Shown here in pieces: positions 8,058 through 20,827 of a stretch of 25,631 nt of DNA. A program made the translations under genes and the position numbers. The number at the start of each line of letters is the position of its first letter. Positions within the stretch are counted from its first letter, which is position 1. The notes below the pieces were generated by a model. It did no database searches. It saw only the letters and a program-made list of their open reading frames with translations, and was not told where the DNA came from. This DNA comes from a virus: positions 1 through 25,631 of the IMG/VR virus record IMGVR_UViG_3300027508_000045; one strand, written 5' to 3'.

Positions 8058-9407
8058 TCACCACCCGTCCGACGGGAGTTGTGACGTAAAGTTTCCTATT
8101 GCCGCCAAAGAGCGCGGCGGGCCCGACTCGCCATTTTCCACGTTACTGTCTCTTCCATGTTCGCGCAATGGGAATGGCGTAAACTCTGCGGGCGGAACAC
8201 CTTGCACGCGGTCCCATCCGTACAGCGCCAGTCCGAGCGCCATCACGCCGTCGTCGTGCTCCCCTGGCGGCGCTTCGTATTTCACGCCGGTCGCCGTGTA
8301 GGTGAACTCGAACGCCTCCAGTTCCGCGACCAGCCACTTAGCGGCCTCGGTGTCGGGCAGCGTCAGCTCGTCCCCCTGAAACGCGGCGACCAGCCGCTGC
8401 ATGAGGCGCAGCTTGGACGGCTGGGTAAAGACGTGGGGCGTGACATCGACCCCCATAAGCTGCAAATCGCTCACAATCGCGTCGCCTACGCCGGTCGCGT
8501 CGGCCACGGTGGGGGTCTGCCCTACGATGTCCCGCACCTTCTGCTTGGTGACCGCCCACGGGGCTTGCCACCGCTCCAGCATTACCACCCTTCGGTAGGC
8601 ATCCATCCCGACCACCACGGTGAAGTCAAGACTTCGGGCCAAATCGACGCCGTATACGACGGCGGGGAGGCGGTCTCGCTCGTTTTCGGGCTTAACGGCG
8701 CGTCGGATGGCGTCGAGACCGAAGGGGTTTGCGCCATCATCTGTCGGAACGCCCTCGAACTCCTGCGCGAAGACCTCTGGCGGCAGTTCGCGGCGAGCGA
8801 TTTCCACCTCTTCTGCCGGTATATAGGGGTTTTCCAGCGTCGAGGCCCGGAAGCTCTGCCAATCGGGGTCATCGGTCAGCCCTCGGTTGAATAGCGTGAC
8901 AAATCCGTGTCGCCGCCCCTTGGGCGTCCCCAAAATCAGCGCGCGCCCGCCCAAATCCACCAGCGTCGGGCGGATGGCGGCTTGCCAGACCTCCAGCAAA
9001 TCGCGCACGATGCCCGCCTCGTCGATCACCGCAAGCTTGTATTTACGGCCACGGGCCGGATCGGGCGTATCCAGCGTCCAGACCTCGACAATTCCGCCTG
9101 TAACCAGCTCCAGGCGCTTGTCTTGCTCGGAAACACGTGCTGTGACGGGGGCGAGGCGGTCCACCAGCTCGCGCCACGCTTCGAGCGCGATCTTGTAGCT
9201 GGGCGCAAACCACGCGGCGGGCTCGCCCGCGAGGGCCACGTCACAAACTTCGCGGATGCCACAGGCTGATTTTCCCCACCGGCGACCGCACATGACCACG
9301 CGGAAGCGGGCGGGGTGGCTGGCGATGGCGGCTTGACCTGGATGACGCCGGTGGAGGCGTACGACCGCCTCCGTGCCCCCTTTGTGCTTCCCTTTAGGGC
9401 TCGCCAT
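8058..9407 (-). CDS. terL: terminase large subunit (packaging ATPase-nuclease)
   Basis: This 449-residue protein carries both terminase domains. The ATPase domain has Walker A CGRRWGKS at 40-47, Walker B LAVIDE at 125-130, and the coupling segment LILGTPKG at 157-164. The RNase H-fold nuclease domain begins with VYGVDLA (D255) and continues with ADATG (D303) and HDDGVMALGLAL (D385/D386), the acidic metal-binding residues expected for headful or cos-cutting nucleases. It would pump DNA into the procapsid through the portal, working with TerS at 11230-11736. Its ATG overlaps the stop of the upstream metalloprotease-like gene by one base. Several genes separate TerS and TerL, which is unusual but not rare. 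Confidence 0.95.
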   Translation of the reverse strand: MASPKGKHKGGTEAVVRLHRRHPGQAAIASHPARFRVVMCGRRWGKSACGIREVCDVALAGEPAAWFAPSYKIALEAWRELVDRLAPVTARVSEQDKRLELVTGGIVEVWTLDTPDPARGRKYKLAVIDEAGIVRDLLEVWQAAIRPTLVDLGGRALILGTPKGRRHGFVTLFNRGLTDDPDWQSFRASTLENPYIPAEEVEIARRELPPEVFAQEFEGVPTDDGANPFGLDAIRRAVKPENERDRLPAVVYGVDLARSLDFTVVVGMDAYRRVVMLERWQAPWAVTKQKVRDIVGQTPTVADATGVGDAIVSDLQLMGVDVTPHVFTQPSKLRLMQRLVAAFQGDELTLPDTEAAKWLVAELEAFEFTYTATGVKYEAPPGEHDDGVMALGLALYGWDRVQGVPPAEFTPFPLREHGRDSNVENGESGPPRSLAAIGNFTSQLPSDGW

Positions 9408-9727
9408 CAGCCGAACCGCTCCCGCATCCGCGCGCTGGCAATGGCGTCACAGACGGCCTCGACCAGTTCATCGTTCATCCCGTTGGACAGTCCTGCGTCA
9501 TCCAGCGCCACATGGGTCAACTCGTGGAACAGGACGCGCCACTGGTGCCGCTTCATGGCGGTTTTGTCGAGCGTGATGGTGCGCGTCGAGTCATCCCAGA
9601 TGCCCCAGCACTCGTCCCCGTCGGGGTGCTTGATCTTGGGGGACAGCACGACCGTCACCTCCCCTGCGGGGGCCATGAGGGTCTTGGGAAGCGCCGGAAA
9701 GCTAACGGATTTTTTTGAGGGTGACAT
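9407..9727 (-). CDS. small HExxH zinc-metallopeptidase-like protein
   Basis: This 106-residue protein carries FHELTHVALDDAG at 67-79, a canonical HExxH zinc site (H68, E69, H72). Glu87 or Glu90 (NDELVEAV) is in the right place for the third ligand, as in the gluzincin layout of ImmA/IrrE and related phage peptidases. The preceding segment, ECWGIWDDSTRTITLDKT (39-56), looks like the beta-strand edge that precedes the active helix. The protein is short for ImmA (about 150 or more residues) and lacks a DNA-binding domain. The gene lies between a phosphoesterase and TerL. A role in processing a head protein or a host regulator is possible but unproven. Confidence 0.7.
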   Translation of the reverse strand: MSPSKKSVSFPALPKTLMAPAGEVTVVLSPKIKHPDGDECWGIWDDSTRTITLDKTAMKRHQWRVLFHELTHVALDDAGLSNGMNDELVEAVCDAIASARMRERFG

Positions 9728-9728
9728 G

Positions 9729-10817
9729 TTAGACGGGCTGCGCGATGATAGTCTGGCCCACCGTGGTCACCACGGCGCGGTCTTTGACCACGTTCACTAA
9801 TTCGACCCCATAGCCCCCGTGTTCCTCGCTGTGCGCGATGATGGCAAAGCCGTTGGTCCAGTTGGGGGCGCTGACGTAACTGGGGTTCAGGTCGCACATA
9901 CAGCCGATTTCGTAGGCGCGGCGCACCTGTTCTGGCCGGTTTCCTACTGCTGGAATCCGCTCCAGGCTGCTGCCCATGCGATGTGTGTGACTGTGCATGA
10001 CGCTGGAGTGCCACTTTTCCGCGTGGCCTCGGGCGCTATAGGCGGCGTGCTTGCGAACGAGGTCACCGTGCAGGACCAGCAGCTCATCGGCGATCATCAC
10101 GTGGTCAGCCAAGCGAATCGGGCACCATTCGGGGTAGAACCACGTCTGGTACTGCAAAAGCTGTTCGGCCTTGGGGTGCCCGTACAGCACTGGCACACGG
10201 TCACTGAGGTAGCGATGCCAGCGCGAGGCGGTCCCGTTCCCGCTATGGTTGGCCTCGGTTTCGACCAATTCCATGCCCCACGCCGCGCCGAGACTGTGCG
10301 CCAAGTGCAGGAACTTGTGGAACTCGGTCACTTCTTGGCGCAAATCCCAGGTATGGCGCTGATCCTTAGGATACCGGCTGACGGCCAGCAAATCTACCGT
10401 GTCGCCGTTCAGGATCAGGCGCTGGGGGCGGACCTGGCTGATGACTTCCAGCAAAATCGCCACACTGGCGTGACTTTGGGCCGGAAAATGGAAGTCGCCC
10501 GCCACAATCGTGTACGGGTTGCTGGTGGCGGTACGCTTGGGTTTGTCTGGGGCGGGGAGGGCGACGGGGCGGAGCTGGTCCAACCACTCGGGAATCTGGT
10601 CCTGCCCAATTTTGGCGGCGGGATCAAAGAGTGCCCGATCCAAGCCGTCCGCCTTGTGCTTCAGGTTGCGGACGACCCCGACCCCTAAGACCTGTTGTTT
10701 GTTATGCACGGACGCATACGACCGCTGCATCTGCTGCGCGATCTGCGCAATAGTCAACCGCGCATTCGTCAGGTCGCGGAGCGTCTGTTCGTCTTCAGGC
10801 GTCCACGGGTTTGGCAC
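9729..10817 (-). CDS. HTH-fused calcineurin-like metallophosphoesterase
   Basis: This 362-residue protein starts at a GTG (10817) with GGAG four bases upstream. The reading frame extends further 5' but would then run deeper into the zinc-ribbon ORF. Residues 4-50 (WTPEDEQTLRDLTNARLTIA onward) form a Myb/GcrA-like helix-turn-helix. From residue 100 the calcineurin fold is complete: GDFHF (107-111), NGDTVD (137-142), the Asn-His pair at 190-191, LHGD (249-252) and HSHTHR (275-280), the dimetal ligands. Such enzymes cleave phosphoesters in DNA, RNA or nucleotides. The domain fusion suggests a DNA-directed enzyme. Its location between TerS and TerL points to packaging or DNA-end processing, but the substrate is unknown. 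Confidence 0.85.
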   Translation of the reverse strand: MPNPWTPEDEQTLRDLTNARLTIAQIAQQMQRSYASVHNKQQVLGVGVVRNLKHKADGLDRALFDPAAKIGQDQIPEWLDQLRPVALPAPDKPKRTATSNPYTIVAGDFHFPAQSHASVAILLEVISQVRPQRLILNGDTVDLLAVSRYPKDQRHTWDLRQEVTEFHKFLHLAHSLGAAWGMELVETEANHSGNGTASRWHRYLSDRVPVLYGHPKAEQLLQYQTWFYPEWCPIRLADHVMIADELLVLHGDLVRKHAAYSARGHAEKWHSSVMHSHTHRMGSSLERIPAVGNRPEQVRRAYEIGCMCDLNPSYVSAPNWTNGFAIIAHSEEHGGYGVELVNVVKDRAVVTTVGQTIIAQPV

Positions 10818-10977
10818 GCGACTCCGATTGCAAAGGCTGGGGTGGGCCGGTATTCGGCACCGGAATATACACCTCGCCACACTTCCCGCACGGGTCGCCA
10901 GCGGCAGGACGCCCCCACTCCCCGCACAACGCGCAGCGGTGCAGGGTTCGTGAGGGGGGACGCGCAGGGTGTGTCAT
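10795..10977 (-). CDS. small zinc-ribbon protein
   Basis: This 60-residue ORF has two CxxC pairs, CALCG (15-19) and CGKCG (30-34), spaced as in a treble-clef or zinc-ribbon fold, with a Pro-rich tail. It begins one base after the 3' end of the tRNA and overlaps the next gene by 23 bases. The upstream bases are the tRNA acceptor stem, so there is no normal ribosome site. Translation would have to be leaderless after tRNA processing, or the real start differs. The cysteine spacing is the main reason for accepting it. Confidence 0.5.
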   Translation of the reverse strand: MTHPARPPSRTLHRCALCGEWGRPAAGDPCGKCGEVYIPVPNTGPPQPLQSESRAKPVDA

Positions 10978-10978
10978 A

Positions 10979-11050
10979 TAGCGGGGGAAGGAATCGAACC
11001 TTCGACCTGCGGAGTATGAGTCCGCCGAGCTTCCACTGCTCCACCCCGCA
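10979..11050 (-). tRNA. tRNA-Met(CAT), initiator-like
   Basis: The minus strand folds as a 72-nt cloverleaf. The acceptor stem has six GC pairs plus an unpaired first position (T1 opposite T72) and discriminator A73. The D-stem GAGC/GCTC has a 7-nt loop. The anticodon stem GCGGA/TCCGC carries the loop CTCATAC (anticodon CAT). The variable loop is AGGTC, and the T-stem GAAGG/CCTTC has the loop TTCGATT. The unpaired 1-72 position and the A11-T24 pair are hallmarks of bacterial initiator tRNA-fMet. Only two of the three anticodon-stem GC pairs of initiators are present (31-39 is A-T). No CCA is encoded. An elongator Met or lysidine-modified Ile tRNA is less likely. Confidence 0.9.
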
Positions 11051-11229
11051 CCGAGATCTCTCGTTCTCTTGTGAACGCGTTGACATGAACCGTTTCGCGT
11101 ATTCGCTGTGCGTACGCTTTGCGTTCATCCCCCCTCTCACATCTCCCCCCAACCTCTGGGGTTTGGCGCTGGCTGTCAATCCCCCTTCATGCAAACTTAA
11201 CCAAATCTTAATCTTTCCCTCATCTTCGC
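11051..11229. other. spacer between TerS and the tRNA
   Basis: This 179-base gap holds no credible gene. It contains one copy (11076-11091) of a motif, CGTTGACATGAACC, that is closely related to copies at the TerS start and upstream of the HNH gene. A pyrimidine-rich stretch lies at 11126-11155. A frame is open through here on the minus strand, but it runs straight through the tRNA and is treated as spurious. Confidence 0.6.
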
Positions 11230-11736
11230 TTAATCCTCGCCAGCGGCAATCCGGAGCGGGGTTTGGACGGCGATCTGCATAATCGCCCCGCTGACCACCT
11301 CCTTGGCGCTTTCGGTCATCGCTCGGACGTTCTTCACCGGCACGTCGTCCTCCACGATCTTCACCTGGAGCGTCTGCGCGCCTTGGTGCTCCACGGTCTG
11401 GCGATCCCCGTATTCTGCCGGATTCGCCTTCCCCGCTGCCCATTTCAGCGTTTCGATCAGCACCCGATCTGCGGCGCTGGAGTAATTCGTACTCTCCCGC
11501 GCCACCCGAAGCGCCTCCTCCGCCATCGCGCTCGCCATGAGCTTCTTGGCGCGCTGATACTCTCCCGCCCACTCCTCGCGCTCCGTCATCCACCGGCGCA
11601 CCGTGCCATCCGACACGTCCAGCTTCATCGCGCCAACCGCCTCCTTCACCGTCTGCCCGTCCGCCATCCGCCCCAGCACCTCCGCCACAATCTCCGCCTT
11701 CCTCCCTTCACTCTCCGCGTGTTTCCGCGTTGACAT
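11230..11736 (-). CDS. terS: terminase small subunit
   Basis: This 168-residue protein starts at ATG 11736 (MSTRKHAESE), preceded by AGGGAG. A longer in-frame ORF exists upstream but overlaps the HNH gene and looks like shadow sequence. Residues 10-52 are a helix-turn-helix (EIVAEVLGRMADGQTVKEAV, then DVSDGTVRRWM). A helical oligomerisation segment follows (ADRVLIETLKWAAGK). The ending, NPAEYGDRQTVEHQG, is a signature of phage TerS proteins. It would bind the packaging site and recruit TerL at 8058-9407. It is separated from the HNH gene upstream by 16 bases. The assignment rests on domain pattern plus the HNH-TerS neighbourhood that is common in tailed phages. Confidence 0.85.
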   Translation of the reverse strand: MSTRKHAESEGRKAEIVAEVLGRMADGQTVKEAVGAMKLDVSDGTVRRWMTEREEWAGEYQRAKKLMASAMAEEALRVARESTNYSSAADRVLIETLKWAAGKANPAEYGDRQTVEHQGAQTLQVKIVEDDVPVKNVRAMTESAKEVVSGAIMQIAVQTPLRIAAGED

Positions 11737-11752
11737 GTACCACTCCCTGTGA

Positions 11753-12028
11753 TTAGCGCATCGAGCCATCCGCCTTGCGCGGAAAGCTCCGGTTCGTCCC
11801 CTTGGACACGACGCGCGCATTGTCCACGCCGTTCCCGCCGCCCTTGGACAACGGGCGCACATGATCCACGTCCTGCCCCTTCTTCACCGCCTTCCGCTTC
11901 AACACCGCTCTCCGCAGCCGCTTCCGCTTCGCGTTCCCGCTCTGCGCCCCTGTGCCGCTCTCTCCGCGCGCTTTCTGCCCCGCATACTCCCGCGCGTAGT
12001 CCCGCTCGTACCCTGCGCTTGATGGCAT
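11753..12028 (-). CDS. HNH endonuclease next to TerS
   Basis: I place the start at 12028 (MPSSAGYERDYAREY), giving 91 residues, because a near-perfect GGAGGA lies just upstream. The frame extends further 5' into low-complexity repeat DNA. Residues 33-50 are very basic. The HNH core is DVDHVRPLSKGGGNGVDN at 52-69, with the catalytic DH pair, the GG turn and the Asn ligand, followed by ARVVSKGTNRSF and ending KADGSMR. Short HNH proteins of this kind sit beside terminase genes in many phages, where some are needed for cohesive-end cutting by terminase. It is the first gene of the leftward packaging operon. An alternative start at 12106 (MSTEAM) has a weaker ribosome site. Confidence 0.85.
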   Translation of the reverse strand: MPSSAGYERDYAREYAGQKARGESGTGAQSGNAKRKRLRRAVLKRKAVKKGQDVDHVRPLSKGGGNGVDNARVVSKGTNRSFPRKADGSMR

Positions 12029-12163
12029 CGCTCCTCCGTTGTCGTCGCCCGCACGCCCACTCCGCGCTAACATAATGCCCCCACGGCACATCGCCTCCGT
12101 TGACATGTACCATGCCCCTTCTGACCGTGTGAGGGTGGTGCAATACCGCGCGTGTTGCCGCTC

Positions 12164-12175
12164 GGGGTATACCCC
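12164..12175. repeat. perfect 12-bp palindrome GGGGTATACCCC
   Basis: A perfect dyad next to the left alternating purine-pyrimidine block, in the region where a promoter for the leftward HNH-TerS operon would be expected. The TATACC within it could act as a -10 element on either strand. No matching -35 is obvious, so an operator or a structural boundary is equally possible. Confidence 0.4.
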
Positions 12176-12177
12176 CT

Positions 12178-12335
12178 CGCGCGCGTGCACGTGCGCCCAG
12201 GCGCACGTGGGCACGTGCACGTGTGCGCGTGCGTATGTGCACGTGCCCACGCGCCCCCACGTGCACGTGGCGCGCGCGAGAGAACGCCCTGAGCGATCTC
12301 GCGTGTGCGCGTGTGTCGCGCGCGTAGGCTATAGA
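12178..12335. repeat. left alternating purine-pyrimidine (Z-DNA-like) block with cruciform repeats
   Basis: This stretch is made mainly of GTGCAC, CACGTG and GCGCGC steps with a few breaks. It holds three perfect dyads: a 10-bp inverted repeat with a 2-base centre (CACGTGCGCC at 12188 and its complement), a 14-bp inverted repeat GTGGGCACGTGCAC at 12207-12220 matched at 12237-12250, and the 14-bp palindrome CCACGTGCACGTGG at 12257-12270. Such DNA can adopt left-handed or cruciform structure under negative supercoiling. It mirrors the larger tract at 15387-15566. Confidence 0.8.
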
Positions 12336-12390
12336 CTCGCGCGCGTGCGCGGGGCGCTTGGTTGCGATTTTTCCCCTTCCCAACGCCCCG

Positions 12391-12629
12391 CTCGAGCTCG
12401 TGTCATTCCGCGCGCCACGTGCCGATCCCCTCGATCCCCTCGAGCCCCGCGCCGCGCAGCGCCTCGCGCGCGCACGCGCACGAGAAAACACCCTAAGGAA
12501 ACACCCCGGTATTCCGGCTTTTGGAACCGCCCTCGAGCTCGAGCGGGGTTCCCTCGAGGGGCTCGAGCTCACGCCCTCGAGAGCTCGAGGGGCTCGAGCT
12601 CGAGGGCGGCGCTATTGTTGACTCTCGAG
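12391..12629. repeat. left CTCGAG/GAGCTC palindrome cluster
   Basis: Eleven CTCGAG hexamers occur in 239 bases, several fused as CTCGAGCTCGAG. The arms 12527-12543 and 12593-12609 are a perfect 17-bp inverted repeat that could form an 83-base hairpin. The inner sequence is itself made of nested CTCGAG dyads. Two 18-base words, one containing GAGCTCGAGGGGCTCGAG, recur in the right cluster at 15117-15362. Confidence 0.85.
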
Positions 12630-12646
12630 AGCACGGGCCGTACGTT
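12618..12646 (+). promoter_or_regulatory. sigma70-like promoter of the island with palindromic operator candidate
   Basis: TTGACT (12618-12623) and TACGTT (12641-12646) are separated by exactly 17 bases. They lie about 60 bases upstream of the first island gene and fit a -35/-10 pair, with a weak -10. The perfect 10-bp palindrome CTCTCGAGAG (12622-12631) overlaps the end of the -35 and the spacer, a good position for a repressor site. Confidence 0.45.
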
Positions 12647-12704
12647 GGGGTGGTGCGCGGCGGGGGCCGCGCACGGCAGGACAACTCAACGCAAGAGGGA
12701 AAAG

Positions 12705-12857
12705 ATGACGATGGCGATTTTGGTAACCGGCGCAGGGCTCATGTCGATCATTGCGGGACTGGGCACGCGTTCGCTCACGCTTGTCGGTGCGGGTGCCGTG
12801 GCGCTCGTAATCGGCGCGCTCCTCGTGGCGCTGCACGACTTGCGGGGGGATGACTGA
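12705..12857 (+). CDS. 50-residue two-helix membrane peptide
   Basis: An ATG at 12705 with GAGGGA four bases upstream opens a 50-codon gene whose TGA overlaps the amidoligase ATG (TGATG). The peptide has two hydrophobic segments, about 4-20 (AILVTGAGLMSIIAGLG) and 23-43 (SLTLVGAGAVALVIGALLVA), separated by a short Thr-Arg turn. It ends with a charged tail, HDLRGDD. This predicts a small inner-membrane hairpin protein. Its tight coupling to the next gene suggests that it serves the amidoligase system, for example as an anchor. It could also be a holin-like or superinfection peptide. It is the first gene after the island promoter. No family is recognised. Confidence 0.65.
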   Translation: MTMAILVTGAGLMSIIAGLGTRSLTLVGAGAVALVIGALLVALHDLRGDD

Positions 12858-14083
12858 TGCCGACGCCCAACGAAACCGAAACCGCGCACGAAACGCCGAC
12901 GTGCTGCGCAGAGTGCTGCGCCGTTGTGCGCGACGATGACGACACCGTGCTAGTTGGCGATCGCGTTGTGCACGCGTTTTGCGCGTTCGAGTGCTCGTAT
13001 TGTGACGCGTACACGTTGCGTAGTGACTCAACGCGCGCGTTCGATGAATGGGGAAACATCGTGCACTTGTGCGAATCGTGCGCCGACGCCCACACGTTCT
13101 CGTGTGCGGATTGTGATAGGCTGTACACCGACGGCGCATGGGGAACAGACGGCGTGTGCAGAGAATGCGAACTCGAGCGCGAAGAGCGCGCCGAACGTGA
13201 AGCGCAAACGCGCGTGATTGGTGGATACCACAACGGCGAACGCCGCGCGCAAACGGTACCGCTGCCGTCGGCGTGGACGCGTGCACACGGTGATCGGCAT
13301 TTCGGCGTTGAACTCGAAGTTGAGATGGCCGACGCCGACGCGAGCGATGAACAGCGCCACGACACGGCGCGTGCGTTGCTCGACGTGGCGAACGGCGACA
13401 CGCGCCGCGTATGGGCAGAGCACGACGGCAGCCTCACGTGGGGATTCGAGCTCATCACGCAACCGATGGGCCTCGATGCGCATGAGGAACTGTGGTCGCG
13501 TGTGTTGTCGCAAACGGCGGCGCGCGCGTTGCGTTCGCACGACACGCGCACGTGCGGACTGCACGTCCACGTGTCGCGCCGTGGCCTCACCACACTGCAA
13601 CTCGCGCGCGCCGTTGTGTTTCTCAACGCACCGGAGAACGAAACGCTTGTACGCGCCATCGCGCGGCGCTATGGCAACTCGTACTGCCGCATCGCGAAGA
13701 AAGCGCTACGCAATGCGGCGCAGTCGTACGACCGGTACGAGATGCTCAATCTCACGAACTCACGCACCGTTGAGTTTCGCCTATTCCGTGGCACGTTACG
13801 CGCGGAAACGGTGCTCGCGTGCGTTGAGTTTTCCAACGCCGTGCTCGAGTTCGCGCGCACGGCGTCGAATGGCGATCTAAGTACGCGTGCTTTCCTCGAG
13901 CACGTTTACGACGTCGCGAACGCCGCCGACACAAAGCATCTGCGCCGATGCTTTGCGCGCCGCGTGACAGAGCGCGCCGCGCCGCGCTACGAGCCGTTGC
14001 GTAGCGCCATTGAAGCTATCACGAAGCGCGCAATCCGCGCGCCGCGTGTCACCGACACTGCAACCCGTTGGGCGGAGATCTAA
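12857..14083 (+). CDS. Amidoligase_2-family ligase with N-terminal zinc-knuckle array
   Basis: This 408-residue protein has two parts. Residues 1-105 hold thirteen cysteines, mostly in CxxC pairs (16-21, 46-49, 72-75, 83-86, 101-104), predicting two or more zinc ribbons. From residue 148 the ligase domain shows GVELEVE (150-156), EHDGSL (188-193), GFELITQP (196-203), CGLHVHVS (233-240), a YEMLNLTN segment (294-301) and TVEFRLFRGTL (304-314). These acidic and His motifs match the glutamine-synthetase-like putative amidoligases (PF12224), thought to join carboxyl and amine groups using ATP. Members are known to sit beside glutamine-amidotransferase-like genes, as here. The substrate is unknown. 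The zinc array may bind the target or nucleic acid. CTCGAG occurs three times inside the gene. Confidence 0.85.
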   Translation: MPTPNETETAHETPTCCAECCAVVRDDDDTVLVGDRVVHAFCAFECSYCDAYTLRSDSTRAFDEWGNIVHLCESCADAHTFSCADCDRLYTDGAWGTDGVCRECELEREERAEREAQTRVIGGYHNGERRAQTVPLPSAWTRAHGDRHFGVELEVEMADADASDEQRHDTARALLDVANGDTRRVWAEHDGSLTWGFELITQPMGLDAHEELWSRVLSQTAARALRSHDTRTCGLHVHVSRRGLTTLQLARAVVFLNAPENETLVRAIARRYGNSYCRIAKKALRNAAQSYDRYEMLNLTNSRTVEFRLFRGTLRAETVLACVEFSNAVLEFARTASNGDLSTRAFLEHVYDVANAADTKHLRRCFARRVTERAAPRYEPLRSAIEAITKRAIRAPRVTDTATRWAEI

Positions 14084-14085
14084 CC

Positions 14086-15015
14086 ATGTGCCTTATCATC
14101 GTTCAACCAGCAGGACACACACTCCCACGTGCGCGCCTCGTGGAAATTTTCTCACGCAATGATGACGGGTTCGGCATTATGCGCGCCGTCGGTGGTGTGC
14201 TACACACGTGGCGAACCGTGGGCGACGTCAACGAGATGCTCGCGCTCTACTACGCGCACGCCGCGGGGCGTGCGTGCGTGCTGCATTGGCGCATGGCAAC
14301 GCACGGTAGCGTGAATCTCGAGAACGCCCACCCGTTCACACTTACGCCAGATGTGGCGTTCGTCCACAACGGCGTGCTCGAGATCGGCACACCGACGCGC
14401 GGGATGTCCGATACGTGGCATATGGCGCAGCACGTGCTCGCGCCGATGGCGCGCGACAATGCCGATGCGTTGTTCTCGAGCGACGTGCAACGCGTGCTCG
14501 AGGGGATGATCGGCACGAGCAACAAGTTTGTGTTCGCACACGCCGATGGGCGCGTTGCCGTCGTGAACCGCGCGGCTGGCGTTGAGTATCATGGGTGCTG
14601 GTACTCGAACACCTACGCATGGAATCCGCCCGCGCATCTACGCGCGGCGCGTACCGCGCGCAGCTACTCGAACTACCTGCACGACGTTGAGTGGGAGAGC
14701 CCCGCGACGGTGCATGGCCCCGCGTGTGTGACGGTGACGCCGTTGCACGACGACACGCCCGCGCTACTCACGAGCGACGGCGAAGACGCCGACGAGCTCA
14801 TGCGCGAATGTGTGCGTGTCGAGCTCGTCGAGCTCGCGGAGCGCAACGGCGAAGCGGGGGCGCTCGAGTGGGTCCGCGACTATCCCAACGCCGCAGCAGA
14901 GCTACTCTGCGAGCACTACACCGTGACGGCAGAGGACGCCGCGTTTCACGTACGCACCGACGCCGCATCGGTCGCCTCGTGGGTGTTCGAGCTCGTACCA
15001 TTGCTCACCGACTAA
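14086..15015 (+). CDS. class II glutamine amidotransferase-like Ntn hydrolase
   Basis: I start this 309-residue protein at ATG 14086 so that it begins Met-Cys (MCLIIVQPAG). Removal of Met would expose Cys as the catalytic N-terminal nucleophile. A frame six codons longer would hide it. A GGAG lies nine bases upstream. Class II hallmarks follow: NDDGFG (25-30), HWRMATHG (67-74, the usual Arg-x-x-Thr-x-Gly region), HPF (82-84), VHNGVL (93-98, the Asn-Gly oxyanion motif) and NKFVFAHADG (146-155). The C-terminal 130 residues are of unknown fold, with an acidic helical part (DADELMRECVRVELVELAER). The protein probably releases ammonia from glutamine or an isopeptide for the adjacent amidoligase, or trims its product. 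It lies two bases after the ligase stop in the same operon. Confidence 0.85.
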   Translation: MCLIIVQPAGHTLPRARLVEIFSRNDDGFGIMRAVGGVLHTWRTVGDVNEMLALYYAHAAGRACVLHWRMATHGSVNLENAHPFTLTPDVAFVHNGVLEIGTPTRGMSDTWHMAQHVLAPMARDNADALFSSDVQRVLEGMIGTSNKFVFAHADGRVAVVNRAAGVEYHGCWYSNTYAWNPPAHLRAARTARSYSNYLHDVEWESPATVHGPACVTVTPLHDDTPALLTSDGEDADELMRECVRVELVELAERNGEAGALEWVRDYPNAAAELLCEHYTVTAEDAAFHVRTDAASVASWVFELVPLLTD

Positions 15016-15035
15016 CGCACACGCCCCGCAACCCA

Positions 15036-15066
15036 ACGCCCCCGTGCTCACGCGCGGGGGCGTTTT
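15036..15066 (+). terminator. rho-independent terminator of the island operon
   Basis: ACGCCCCCG (15036-15044) pairs perfectly with CGGGGGCGT (15055-15063) across a 10-base loop, followed by TTTT, 20 bases after the stop of the amidotransferase gene. Outer flanking sequences (about 15020-15035 and 15067-15086) are also largely complementary and could extend the stem. The T-run is short. Confidence 0.75.
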
Positions 15067-15088
15067 GCGTTGGGGGCGTGCGGGGCCG

Positions 15089-15244
15089 TAAACGCCCCGC
15101 AGAGCCCCGAACGCCGCTCGAGCGGGGCAACCCTGCCCTCGAGCCCTCGAGGGCCGCACGCGAGCTCGAGGGCCCCGTAGGGCTCGAGCTCGAGGGCCCC
15201 GTGGTGCTCGAGCCCCTAAACGCCCCGCAGAGCCCCGAACGCCG
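15089..15244. repeat. 28-bp direct repeat, two copies
   Basis: The 28 bases at 15089-15116 recur exactly at 15217-15244, 128 bases apart. The second copy then diverges into GTTCGGGGG where the first continues into CTCGAGCGGGG. An 11-base fragment (CCCCGCAGAGC) recurs again at 15303-15313. The CTCGAG cluster lies partly between the copies, which suggests a duplicated block. Confidence 0.85.
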
Positions 15245-15362
15245 TTCGGGGGCACCGATTCCCCACACAACGCGAGATCGCCCCTCTACGAGGCTACTGG
15301 GGCCCCGCAGAGCGCCAGCACGCGCACCCCACGGCGTCGCCCTCGAGCTCGAGGGGCTCGAG
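15117..15362. repeat. right CTCGAG/GAGCTC palindrome cluster
   Basis: Ten CTCGAG hexamers occur in 246 bases. Adjacent units are fused at 15183-15194 and 15342-15353. Two 18-base words are shared with the left cluster. The dyads could form several alternative hairpins. The cluster sits between the island terminator and the alternating tract, the mirror of the left-hand order. Confidence 0.85.
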
Positions 15363-15386
15363 CCCCTGTGGCGTCGCCTGGCGCCT

Positions 15387-15566
15387 CGTGCGCGCGTGTG
15401 CGTGTGTGTGTGCGTGTGTGTGTGCACGCGCACACGTGTGCACGTGTGCACGTGTGCACGTGTGCGCGTGTGCACGTGTGCACGTGTGCGCGTGTGCGCG
15501 TGTGCACGTGTGCGCGTGTGCGCGTGTGCACGTGTGCACGTGTGCGCGCACGCGCGCACACGCACG
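15387..15566. repeat. 180-base uninterrupted alternating purine-pyrimidine tract with tandem octamers
   Basis: Every base from 15387 to 15566 alternates pyrimidine-purine with no break. From 15433 to 15544 it consists of 14 tandem copies of C(A/G)CGTGTG, with position 2 reading A A A A G A A G G A G G A A. The left end is TG/CG-rich and the right end turns into CGCGCACGCGCG. This is close to ideal Z-DNA-forming sequence and a slippage-prone minisatellite. It is not protein-coding in any convincing way. Confidence 0.95.
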
Positions 15567-15567
15567 A

Positions 15568-15608
15568 GCTTACCTCTCAGGCTTACCCCTCGGGGTTACC
15601 TCTCAGGG
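15568..15608. repeat. three 13-bp tandem repeats
   Basis: GCTTACCTCTCAG (15568-15580), GCTTACCCCTCGG (15581-15593) and GGTTACCTCTCAGGG (15594-15608) are imperfect copies in tandem, directly after the alternating tract and followed by TTTTTG. They may be iteron-like protein sites or slippage products. Confidence 0.7.
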
Positions 15609-15785
15609 TTTTTGCGTTCGGGGCGCGCGCGTGGCGCGCGTGGAGAGAGAGTGAGGGCAGAACTACTATGCCGCAGAGCAAAACTAGGGCTTGCAAAACG
15701 CGCGATGGTCGCGCATTGTGTTGGCGTGGCGAGGGACAACCCTCTGCCGCCATCAGACCCCCGGCTGATGACTCCCTCTTGCCAT

Positions 15786-15823
15786 CACACCCCGCCGCCT
15801 CTGCGTGAGACGAGCGGGGTGTG
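15786..15823 (-). terminator. possible terminator hairpin after the leftward replication operon
   Basis: CACACCCCGC (15786-15795) pairs perfectly with GCGGGGTGTG (15814-15823) around an 18-base loop, about 20 bases after the stop of the last leftward gene. No T-run follows on the minus strand, so it may act with another factor or only protect the mRNA end. Confidence 0.4.
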
Positions 15824-15844
15824 GTGCGTTATGGGGTGGGGAGA

Positions 15845-17738: not shown

Positions 17739-18114
17739 GTAGTGGCTCCAGTAATCGAATGGTGATGGTCGCGCCTGCAATAAGGGGCGACACGTTGAGG
17801 TCGTCGAAGATCCAGTGTTCGTCGCGCACCTGCTTGTCGTCGATCCACACCCCGCCGCTCGCGGTGATTCCGTCTTTCAGGCTCTTGCTGAAATTGAGAT
17901 CACGGTGTCGGCGATCCGGTGCGCGGACAACGATGACAATGCCGATGCGCTGTCGTGTTTCAGTCCACCCTGCTTGCTCTGCCGCAAGCCGTGCCAGCTC
18001 GCCGATCACGTGCTTCGACTGGCGATACCGCTTGCTCAGGATGTAGCCGCGCACGTACTTCCGGTTGTCACTACACAGCGCCTCCCACGGGACGGTAAAC
18101 GTCAGGGCGGGCAT
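17575..18114 (-). CDS. RusA-like Holliday-junction resolvase
   Basis: This protein starts at ATG 18114, 13 bases inside the methyltransferase gene. Residues 1-123 match the RusA fold: TFTVPWEALCSDNRKY at the start, VVRAPDRRHRDLNFSKSLKD (62-81) holding D72 and D81, and VWIDDKQVRDEHW (89-101) with the DD pair at 92-93 and K94. RusA dimers resolve four-way junctions made in phage recombination and replication. Known RusA proteins are about 120 residues. Here the frame stays open for 179 residues, and the last 55 lie over another gene and look like shadow sequence. The functional domain is probably complete. The tail is doubtful. Confidence 0.75.
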   Translation of the reverse strand: MPALTFTVPWEALCSDNRKYVRGYILSKRYRQSKHVIGELARLAAEQAGWTETRQRIGIVIVVRAPDRRHRDLNFSKSLKDGITASGGVWIDDKQVRDEHWIFDDLNVSPLIAGATITIRLLEPLRDVSQKPHPRLSHRHQGSRPARSGVRARDLGVPHQDQTHRRADDHPVRKRRTRS

Positions 18115-19097
18115 GACGCTGCCTCGACCATCCTCGCGAGCCGCGCGGCGAACCACGCAACGCAGACACTGCCCACGCCGTTGCCGCACAGGCGGTATCG
18201 TGCCGCGTCCGAGAGGAGGAAGGGCGTCCCGTCCTCGTGTGCGCCGTACCGCGTCCAGTGATCCGGCCACGACATCAACCGCTCGCACTCAAGCGGCGTG
18301 ATGCGGCGAGGGAGTCCTACGCCGACAGCCGAGAGCGTCTGCTGGATTTGCAGCGCGTCCTGTCCGTTGCCACCAGGCCCTGCGGTATGTGCGCCCATTG
18401 TAAGTGTTGGGAAAACCGGCTCTACAACGCCTTCAACGCCGCCTCTAACGCTGGAGGCAGCGATTTCCCGCGCTTGCTGGCGCGGCGAAGGATGCCCGCA
18501 CACGCCTTCTGAGAGAGCCAATACTTCGGCGGGATCGACCCCACCGGCTCGAGCAGCGACGACAAAGACACGACGGCGGCGCTGTGGGGGGCCGAAGTGT
18601 TGCAGGTCCAACACGCGCCACGCGGCCACTCCGGTAGATCCTGCTGCCACACCTGACTTGCGCCATCCGTCCTGGGGAACAGCAACGTCGGCTCCCACGA
18701 AGGCTGATAGGACGGCGGCGAAATCGTGGCCGTTGTTAGAACTGAGGGCTCCAAGGACGTTCTCCCAGATAAGGTACGGGGCCTCGCTTTCTTTCCAGAT
18801 GCGGACCTGTTCATGAAACAACCCAGAGCGTGCGCCGTCCAACCCCGCCCGCCGTCCCGCCACACTCAAGTCCTGACACGGCGACCCGCCGCTTATCAGT
18901 GTCACGCCACGGAACTGCGTCCCGTCGATCTGCGCGACATCCCCATGCAGGGGCACGGTCGGCCACTGCCTCCGCAGTACGGCCCTCGCGTTGGGCTCGA
19001 TCTCGGCGTGTGCGATAGGCTCGAACCCCGCCGCGTCGAGCCCCATACTGAGCCCTCCTGCTCCTGCAAACAACTCCACGTACGTCAAGCCACTCAC
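18102..19097 (-). CDS. orphan C5-cytosine DNA methyltransferase
   Basis: This 331-residue protein starts at GTG 19097, whose GTGA overlaps the primase-helicase stop, with GGAGG eight bases upstream. All main motifs are present: VELFAGAGGLSMG (7-19, AdoMet binding), SPCQDLS (72-78, catalytic C74), ENV (112-114), QRRRRVFVV (172-180), a motif IX-like RRITPLECERLMSWPDHW (264-281) and GNGVGSVCVAW (305-315). The target-recognition region (180-262) is short. It transfers a methyl group from AdoMet to cytosine C5 in a specific DNA site. No restriction enzyme gene is nearby, so it probably protects phage DNA from host nucleases or tunes expression. Confidence 0.93.
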   Translation of the reverse strand: MSGLTYVELFAGAGGLSMGLDAAGFEPIAHAEIEPNARAVLRRQWPTVPLHGDVAQIDGTQFRGVTLISGGSPCQDLSVAGRRAGLDGARSGLFHEQVRIWKESEAPYLIWENVLGALSSNNGHDFAAVLSAFVGADVAVPQDGWRKSGVAAGSTGVAAWRVLDLQHFGPPQRRRRVFVVAARAGGVDPAEVLALSEGVCGHPSPRQQAREIAASSVRGGVEGVVEPVFPTLTMGAHTAGPGGNGQDALQIQQTLSAVGVGLPRRITPLECERLMSWPDHWTRYGAHEDGTPFLLSDAARYRLCGNGVGSVCVAWFAARLARMVEAASCPP

Positions 19098-20827
19098 TGT
19101 GCGTTCCTCCCGATGCGTGCGGTCCATCCATCCTTCTCTGGCGGTGACACCCGAGTCTCCAGCCGCAGGGTCCGGTAGTCCCAGCGCACCGGAAGATCGG
19201 CCACGCTGCCGTGTCGATTCTTGTCCACGATCAACCACGTGTCTGCCATCCCGCCGTGCCGCTCGAAGCGCGAGTGGTCGAACAACAGCACTTGGTGTGA
19301 GTCGTTCTCAATCGCACTACCGCCCATCAGTCCTTGCGCGACGGGCCGCTCGCTGCGGTTGGCAGAGGTCTGCCGGTTGAACTGCGAGAGGGCTACCATC
19401 ACGATCTGGTACTGCTGCGCCAACTCACGGAGCCGGTGCGCGACCTGCTCAATCCGCTCGTTGATGCTGTGGCTATGGCTCGTGTACGCCAACTGCATGT
19501 AGTCGATGAGGAAGTACCGCGACCCGTGCACATCCACGTGGTACTTGATCGCCGCCTCCACGTCCGAAAGCCGTGACATCGGGCGTCGGTTCACCATCAC
19601 GTGTCCGCCTGTTTGTGTACGGATATTGTCGAGTGTCACCGATGCCCGTATAAACGCGTCCTGCGAGAATGATTCACCCTGCTCCAGTACACTGACCGAC
19701 TCCCCGCTGACCACCGAGAGAAGGCGCGTCGCCAGCTCGCTGCGTCCCATCTCCAGCGAGATAAAGGTCACGGCCTCGCCATGCAAGATCGCCTGTGCTG
19801 CTAAGTTGATGGCTACCAACGACTTACCGGTTCCAGTGTTCGCCCCGATGGTGATGAACCACCCGCGCGCCAGCCCAACGCCACCCCCACCTCCACGGCA
19901 CAGCGTATTCCAGCCCGAGAGCATGGTCGGGACCGCATCAATGGGGGCCAGCTTTTCTTCCAGCAGGTGCTCCAGCGTCATCCCGCTCAGGCTGTCGAAG
20001 GCCACCGTGGGCGGCTCCGTCCCGATGGGCACGGCTGTATTGACGATATGCGCCCACGCGGACTCCCACGGCTCCCCGTGGGCTTGCACGGCTTGATGCA
20101 GGTCACACAGGTCCTTGATGCGCTGCCCACGGTACGTCACGTCCTTGAGGACGCGGGCCGACGGGAGGGATCGCGCGACGTTGGCGACCAGCGTGGCCCC
20201 GCCCTCGTCAGGCTCCTGCCATACAGTGACGTCCCGCCCCGAGAACAGCAGGGCATACTCTGACTTCCAGAGCGACGCCCCTGGAACGCCCACCACGCAC
20301 AGCCCGCGCTGCCATCCCGCGTGGCAGTCCGACTCGCCCTCGACGATCAGGACGGGGCCCGTCGTAGCGGCCAGTACGTCCTGCCCGTAGAGCGGCGTGC
20401 CGGTGCCGTCCGCCATCCAGAATGTCCCCTTCCGCGTGCGGCACTTGGTGCGGATGGTCTGCCCCTCCGCGTCGCGGTAGGGGATCGCCACCAGCGGCTC
20501 CCCGTACTTCCCGTCCCGCTGCGTTACTCCTGCTCGGGTGAGGACGTCAAGGGCGAGCCCTTTCCGCTCGGCGTACTCGACGAGGGTGAGCCCTGTGTTG
20601 CCGGTCTGGACAGGGATCTCCACGCCCAAAACCTCGGCCAGCGTTGCCAGCCCTTCGGAAAATCCACAGGCACTGCACCCCCACGCGTGATCTCCGAGCC
20701 ACGCGGAGGCGGTGGAGTCGTTGTGTCGAGGACAGCGAAACGCAATGCTCTTGCCTGATTTCTTCGCCGCATACCGCCCCCGCAACAGGTGGGATTTGAT
20801 AATGCCGTGTGCGTCCAACGTGTTCAT
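19094..20827 (-). CDS. fused primase-helicase (T7 gp4-like)
   Basis: This 577-residue protein starts at ATG 20827, overlapping the upstream stop (ATGA). An ATG four codons earlier is less well coupled. The order is a zinc finger (C32, H35, C51, C54 in CPRHND and CSACGF), a TOPRIM primase core (IVEGESD at 161-167 and EPDEGG at 205-210), then a RecA-type hexameric helicase with Walker A GANTGTGKS (328-336), Walker B FLIDYMQL (439-446), and SQFNRQTSANRSERP (481-495). It would prime and unwind DNA at the phage replication fork. It stands upstream of the methyltransferase and RusA genes and downstream of the winged-helix replication protein. No separate DNA polymerase gene is in the window. Confidence 0.93.
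   Translation of the reverse strand: MNTLDAHGIIKSHLLRGRYAAKKSGKSIAFRCPRHNDSTASAWLGDHAWGCSACGFSEGLATLAEVLGVEIPVQTGNTGLTLVEYAERKGLALDVLTRAGVTQRDGKYGEPLVAIPYRDAEGQTIRTKCRTRKGTFWMADGTGTPLYGQDVLAATTGPVLIVEGESDCHAGWQRGLCVVGVPGASLWKSEYALLFSGRDVTVWQEPDEGGATLVANVARSLPSARVLKDVTYRGQRIKDLCDLHQAVQAHGEPWESAWAHIVNTAVPIGTEPPTVAFDSLSGMTLEHLLEEKLAPIDAVPTMLSGWNTLCRGGGGGVGLARGWFITIGANTGTGKSLVAINLAAQAILHGEAVTFISLEMGRSELATRLLSVVSGESVSVLEQGESFSQDAFIRASVTLDNIRTQTGGHVMVNRRPMSRLSDVEAAIKYHVDVHGSRYFLIDYMQLAYTSHSHSINERIEQVAHRLRELAQQYQIVMVALSQFNRQTSANRSERPVAQGLMGGSAIENDSHQVLLFDHSRFERHGGMADTWLIVDKNRHGSVADLPVRWDYRTLRLETRVSPPEKDGWTARIGRNAQ

Follow-up and report, generated by a model that had tools for sequence, protein, structure and literature searches.

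What is the segment at 12164–15608 of the viral record IMGVR_UViG_3300027508_000045, where a predicted amidoligase and a predicted amidotransferase lie between two operons of the opposite strand and are flanked by iterated palindromes and alternating purine-pyrimidine blocks? The window analysed here is that whole record, 25,631 bases of a bacterial virus, and all coordinates refer to it unless a locus is named. Its recognisable phage genes are on the minus strand: those for terminase, portal and capsid precede the segment (hereafter the island) on the left, and those for DnaB helicase, an initiator and a cytosine methyltransferase follow on the right. A preliminary description had proposed either a self-contained cassette or a structured locus such as an origin, recombination or packaging site. 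We consider it probable that the phage acquired the stretch from 12164 to about 15700 horizontally, as a cargo cassette that occupies an accessory slot of its group; the position, strand and contents of this slot can be read directly from relatives. The gain was probably recent. The island is unusual-looking yet largely explicable.

Foreign composition of the island

The three plus-strand genes that had been described between the minus-strand operons were recovered as follows:

12705 to 12857, plus strand: open frame for a 50-amino-acid hydrophobic protein, membrane-like by eye, overlapping the next start by one base
12857 to 14083, plus strand: amidoligase with a Cys-rich N-terminal part (by eye); Pfam Amidoligase_2, E 1.9e-9, and PHROG amidoligase families
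14086 to 15015, plus strand: class II glutamine amidotransferase with Cys2 after the start Met; Pfam GATase_4, E 9.7e-6, and GlmS glutaminase, E 2.1e-4

When all 64 six-base palindromes were counted across the window, the best two-rate segment ran from 11951 to 15701, with 0.0488 palindromes per base inside and 0.0053 outside, about nine times denser. The 20 other window genes, all in frame, hold 88 palindromes vs. 271.4 expected, and none of 1000 synonymous shuffles was as low; the two island enzyme genes hold 77 vs. 67.3 expected by the same kind of shuffling, that is, the avoidance is lost. Because the other genes avoid palindromes and the two enzyme genes of the island do not, we regard the segment as compositionally foreign and probably recent. 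Prokaryotic viruses are known to avoid restriction sites (PMC6286503). Here the avoidance extends over the phage group: in nine relatives plus the window outside the island (162 kb), at least 13 of the 53 testable palindromes fell below 0.3 of expectation, vs. one of 2705 non-palindromic words. Slot genes had seen/expected palindrome ratios of 0.19–0.41 in six of seven relatives and 0.95 in L018, on 915 bp (L-numbers denote loci of relatives or of other phages), compared with 1.13 for the slot of the window; one L010 core gene was dropped from the test of relatives by a frame check. The dinucleotide distance of the island genes was likewise extreme, at 184.6, vs. a mean of 66.5 and a maximum of 131.6 for 98 overlapping stretches outside. 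The proposal of a self-contained cassette thus holds up, on its sharp compositional edges, its foreign dinucleotide signature, its lost palindrome avoidance and the absence of its enzymes from seven relatives (below). Loss of a phage's own palindrome avoidance gives a clean, sharp-edged marker of recent cargo.

One palindrome dominates. The island span 12164–15608 contains 29 of the 30 CTCGAG copies of the window and all 13 of its GAGCTC copies, and the clusters previously described on either side are real: 11 CTCGAG fall in the left intergenic stretch (12076–12704), 10 in the right (15016–15844) and eight in the enzyme genes. Under a first-order Markov model 0.9 copies would be expected in 12077–15844, where 29 are seen, and the eight within the two enzyme genes (2.90 expected) were reached by none of 1000 synonymous shuffles. 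Relatives hold seven CTCGAG vs. 67.8 expected (209 kb in 17 loci, some of them near-duplicates); an avoidance specific to CTCGAG was considered and then widened, as the group avoids many palindromes. The CTCGAG clusters would most simply be a word bias of the donor DNA, its signature. A tandem CTCGAG array was seen in another viral contig (L033, 3600–3700).

The accessory slot beside terS

The left edge of the island adjoins the start of the late operon, with these features:

11230 to 11736, minus strand: terS, small terminase subunit, at the start of the late operon; the longer frame 11230–11862 matches Pfam Sf6_terminase (E 2.6e-20)
11753 to 12028, minus strand: small HNH-like protein of 91 amino acids, upstream of terS; Pfam HNH matches below cut-off, E 0.027–0.048
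12100 to 12177, minus strand: conserved element upstream of terS (CACGGYCAGA, 5–15 bases, GTACAWGTCAA; further upstream a G-/C-run around TAT or a variant), forming the left edge of the island

Relatives were gathered via terS (14 loci), via DnaB and via the conserved element. One of the 14 loci is an identical second record, IMGVR_UViG_3300027151_000026 (32,522 bases), whose identity extends over two DNA alignments joining to window 1233–24080, and which may derive from the same material as the window. Seven relatives read through the stretch upstream of terS; their genes were picked simply by codon usage and the contents sampled by Pfam only. In all seven, terS is preceded by genes of the opposite strand (with one exceptional open reading frame, in L015). 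This place, reaching from the early region to the conserved element, is the accessory slot, in which the island is transcribed away from the late operon. The reversed orientation of the island, earlier taken as the sign of a special element, is no evidence for one, because relatives share opposite-strand genes there. L129, L051 and L052 show the same arrangement as the window, opposite-strand slot genes sandwiched between co-oriented early and late genes, and in L010 and L015 the early genes are also on the opposite strand, the slot continuing them. More broadly, L010, L011 and L015 differ from the window, L129, L051 and L052 in that their early genes, as a block, have the inverse orientation with respect to the late ones.

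The contents of the slot vary, comprising a protein with a weak VWA match and a 508-amino-acid protein without Pfam match in L129, and DUF7249 genes in L051 and L045 (the latter from the same record as L010). In the L129 slot (9177–12259), the 508-amino-acid protein looks AAA ATPase-like by eye and, with its VWA-like neighbor, makes a possible conflict system. Neither island enzyme was found in the seven read-through relatives, and tblastn with both against all loci gathered by then gave matches only in loci of the window's species and in three named phages, L038 (podovirus ctgrD200), L127 and L128. Searched record-wide, the amidotransferase was found in one of 13 records, the identical one (seven of the remaining 12 stop short of the slot, so that absence from these says little, and L014 was left out), and the amidoligase in none of eight records, a search with no positive control, nor in the record of L129, where positive controls were present. 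The HNH-like gene, which lies beside terS in the window, has a 69% identical counterpart in L129 (8424–8699), where it occupies the far end of the slot; genes therefore move about here.

Of the other 13 terS contigs, eight (L007, L008, L009, L012, L014, L016, L017 and L019) extend no more than about 415 bp upstream beyond their terS match. The idea that the genome has a clean physical end at terS was rejected, as the contig ends do not coincide; scattered ends of this kind are what assemblies breaking at a variable slot should give. Aligned over the window and nine relatives, the conserved element reads, in order, a G-/C-run around TAT or a variant, CCACC, CACGG(T/C)CAGA and GGTACAAGTCAACG, or close forms of these; its pattern was found in 10 stretches of viral_contigs, and once in the window. 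It could be a late-operon control or a terminase site. An uncultured phage group is thereby described whose variable slot lies next to terS and is bordered by a conserved element.

Elsewhere in the window, we infer that terS starts at the ATG at 11736, a tRNA-Met gene lies at 10979–11050 between terS and the next late gene (the surrounding stretch is matched in relatives), and the cytosine methyltransferase gene, among the replication genes right of the island, occupies 18102–19238 on the minus strand.

Flanking blocks and alternative explanations

The flanks of the island genes contain the following, with fold z scores computed on single strands:

12178 to 12353, no strand: left alternating block, interrupted, longest run 36 bases (12211–12246); diverged counterpart in L008
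12391 to 12629, no strand: left CTCGAG cluster, 11 copies, strongly self-complementary; 12523–12612 folds at z -5.25
15034 to 15066, plus strand: terminator-like hairpin after the island operon, fold z -1.92
15117 to 15362, no strand: right CTCGAG cluster, 10 copies; 15110–15215 folds at z -3.43 and 15325–15370 at z -0.65
15387 to 15566, no strand: right alternating block, unbroken over 180 of 180 bases and built for the most part as an array of the 8-base units GTGTGCAC/GTGTGCGC
15780 to 15830, no strand: hairpin between convergent transcripts, fold z -4.27

Of the two long alternating blocks previously described, the right one stands in full, while the left one is broken up, with runs of 19, 17, 14 and 18 around its 36-base run. 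The 18-base words said to be shared by the flanks were borne out, as an exact 19-base word at 12581 and 15345; such words sit in the CTCGAG clusters. The mirror order, from genes through CTCGAG cluster to alternating block, was also described correctly, but two features per side give it half the time by chance. An alternating tract of 180 bp is rare: among 134 surveyed loci (1.24 Mb, an overlapping convenience set and not a random one), alternating runs longer than 20 occurred only in the window's own species and in L008. A run of 32 was missing from 10 of 11 records searched, the identical record being the exception (the slot is not reached by some of the ten), and a search of the viral collection with a 28-base piece of the 8-base-unit array returned the identical record alone.

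Might the palindromes and alternating blocks be functional borders, insulating or exchanging the cassette by way of Z-DNA or cruciforms, or acting in replication or packaging? We think this improbable. The perfect alternation over 180 bp speaks for it, as does the location of the blocks between divergent and convergent transcripts, and so does the left block when compared with L008. It begins directly at the conserved element and has its counterpart in L008, a contig under another dataset number that is about 85% identical to the window over its length. Identity is 98.0% over the 151 bp at 12027–12177 and then drops to 75.0% in the block, where the L008 contig ends, yet 0.916 of the block's steps in L008 still alternate. 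However, transitions leave alternation intact of their own accord, and they make up 16 of the 24 differences. The alternation kept in L008 therefore needs no selection, although selection may have contributed. The scarcity of the 32-base run among the records searched and the occurrence of the enzyme pair without blocks in other phages (below) also count against functional borders. Nor did the proposed origin, recombination or packaging site gain support: the flanks are GC-rich (0.69–0.70), with neither an AT-rich unwinding region nor a clear skew switch, cumulative GC skew falling to the left and right of the island with only a slight rise in between, and the edges share no inverted word of 12 or more bases. 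As a more specific conjecture, and a long shot, the Z-prone alternating tracts by the terS element may be kept and not merely tolerated, a fast-changing, alternation-preserving border in at least two related phages then serving as a recombination or topological boundary for cargo exchange, with the CTCGAG clusters as a matching second layer in the window phage. Should the tracts prove functional, the idea that cargo is exchanged across a border of DNA structure becomes directly testable. For a cargo cassette, the reading that we prefer, the alternating blocks would be simple-sequence arrays grown in untranslated DNA, and blocks and clusters may have helped recombination at the slot.

An assembly chimera, in which a foreign contig was wrongly joined to that of the phage because of the low-complexity blocks, is unlikely too. 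It draws on the coincidence of the island edges with simple-sequence blocks, on the absence of the island genes from the relatives examined, and on the contig ends near terS noted above. Against it stand the identity of the second record across the island, allowing that it may be the same material, the alternating block in L008 at exactly the same edge, and the island's place in the right slot, on the expected strand, with a gene pair known from phages; false joins would be required at both ends, restoring slot, strand and edge. A transposon or integron-like unit, suggested by a discrete foreign segment with similar sequence clusters on either side, is highly improbable, since no transposase or integrase was recognised among the island genes, no terminal inverted repeats were found (no inverted word of 12 or more bases between the edges, and direct matches of 8 bases only) and the flank-shared words belong to the CTCGAG clusters.

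Terminator-like hairpins in the region numbered three, vs. a shuffle mean of 3.7, and a promoter scan of the region gave no excess over shuffles. A search with the helix-turn-helix gene of the right flank returned the identical record alone, and L129 has a distant match to it (29%).

The enzyme pair and known systems

The product of 12857–14083 carries an Amidoligase_2 (PF12224) domain at 38.2 bits, above the curated cut-off of 22, and that of 14086–15015 matches GATase_4 at 25.1 bits (cut-off 23). Cys2, ATHG and HNG motifs define class II amidotransferases; all three are common to the window protein and its ctgrD200 counterpart, assigning it to that class, and residues 19–105 of the window protein align with the GlmS glutaminase domain, the ATHG and HNG stretches included. 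A Pfam scan of the 50-amino-acid protein gave no match. As predicted from these domains, the class II amidotransferase would free ammonia from glutamine, and the amidoligase, with ATP, would join ammonia or another amine to a carboxyl group. The likely task of the cassette is the attachment or amidation of small molecules; the pair may perform glutamine-fed amidation or ligation, perhaps at the host envelope with the small membrane-like protein assisting, a putative alteration of the surface against competing phages.

An amidoligase-amidotransferase pair is already known in phages. Amidoligase, amidotransferase and ATP-grasp genes are listed for phage UFV-P2 (PMC3890496), both enzymes are given for phage tf (PMC3517423), and both are carried by MEP401 and MEP402, for which a cell-wall change against superinfection was suggested, citing Iyer 2009 (PMC10580990). 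The two genes are adjacent in ctgrD200, MEP401 and MEP402. According to the preliminary description, the three genes without repeats in related phages, or repeats scattered genome-wide, would show the flanks to be unrelated to the module; this came true in part. In these three phages the pair does occur without blocks or CTCGAG clusters, but the repeats of the window are not scattered over its genome. The MEP401 and MEP402 stretches have a longest alternating run of 16 and no CTCGAG, and ctgrD200 has no alternating run of 24 or more.

Several results weigh against a recent horizontal gain. With ten words set aside, most of them constituents of the blocks and clusters, 18 palindromes remain in 3.4 kb inside vs. 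60 in 22 kb outside, an enrichment of only about twofold. The recurrence of the left-edge alternating block in L008 means that part of the island may not be a recent private gain; on the simplest reading the left block, at least, predates the split of window and L008, which sits uneasily with a wholly recent gain. The pair itself has a seen/expected palindrome ratio of 0.60 in ctgrD200 (mild avoidance) and 0.93 in MEP402 (none), although the other genes of these two phages also avoid palindromes little (0.86 and 0.76). The ctgrD200 stretch holds 24 CTCGAG vs. 5.3 expected, with none in the enzyme pair, at most three per 250 bases and no cluster; such a CTCGAG-rich phage may hint at the kind of background from which this cargo comes. 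A donor search of genome_contigs with the amidoligase gave no match, nor did searches of CTCGAG-rich genomes (none of 50, out of 73 loci, with no positive control) and of CTCGAG-rich viral contigs (none of 18, the three named phages in the same search being matched). AlphaFold models made without an alignment were too poor to use (predicted local distance difference test scores of 40.5 and 43.1). Dinucleotide neighbors of the island also gave no convincing source.

The Pseudomonas phages UFV-P2 and tf, the Methylophilales phages MEP401 and MEP402 and the podovirus ctgrD200 all have an amidoligase next to or near a class II amidotransferase, as here. Unlike in those cassettes, the pair in the window lies on the strand opposite the other clear genes, beside the terS region, with a small membrane-like protein ahead, and stands between palindrome and alternating blocks; UFV-P2 differs further, in that an HNH gene separates its two enzyme genes and that it also carries genes for a COOH-NH2 ligase and an ATP-grasp protein. 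Literature searches, on which our statement is based, turned up no description of this architecture. For iterated palindrome bias, the highly iterated palindromes of cyanobacteria (HIP1 and alternates) offer a comparison (PMC4390886). As with HIP1, one short palindrome is far over-represented in coding and non-coding DNA, and in genes beyond what codon usage gives; unlike HIP1, it is confined to a 3.5-kb island of an otherwise palindrome-avoiding genome, with no genome-wide iteration. A methyltransferase that matches the palindrome would be a further point of comparison, and the window does encode a cytosine methyltransferase (18102–19238). The variable accessory slots of phage genomes have a fixed place, a conserved edge and changing contents. 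The slot beside terS is like them in all three respects, and is unlike them in holding cargo that appears recent enough to lack the palindrome avoidance of its group.

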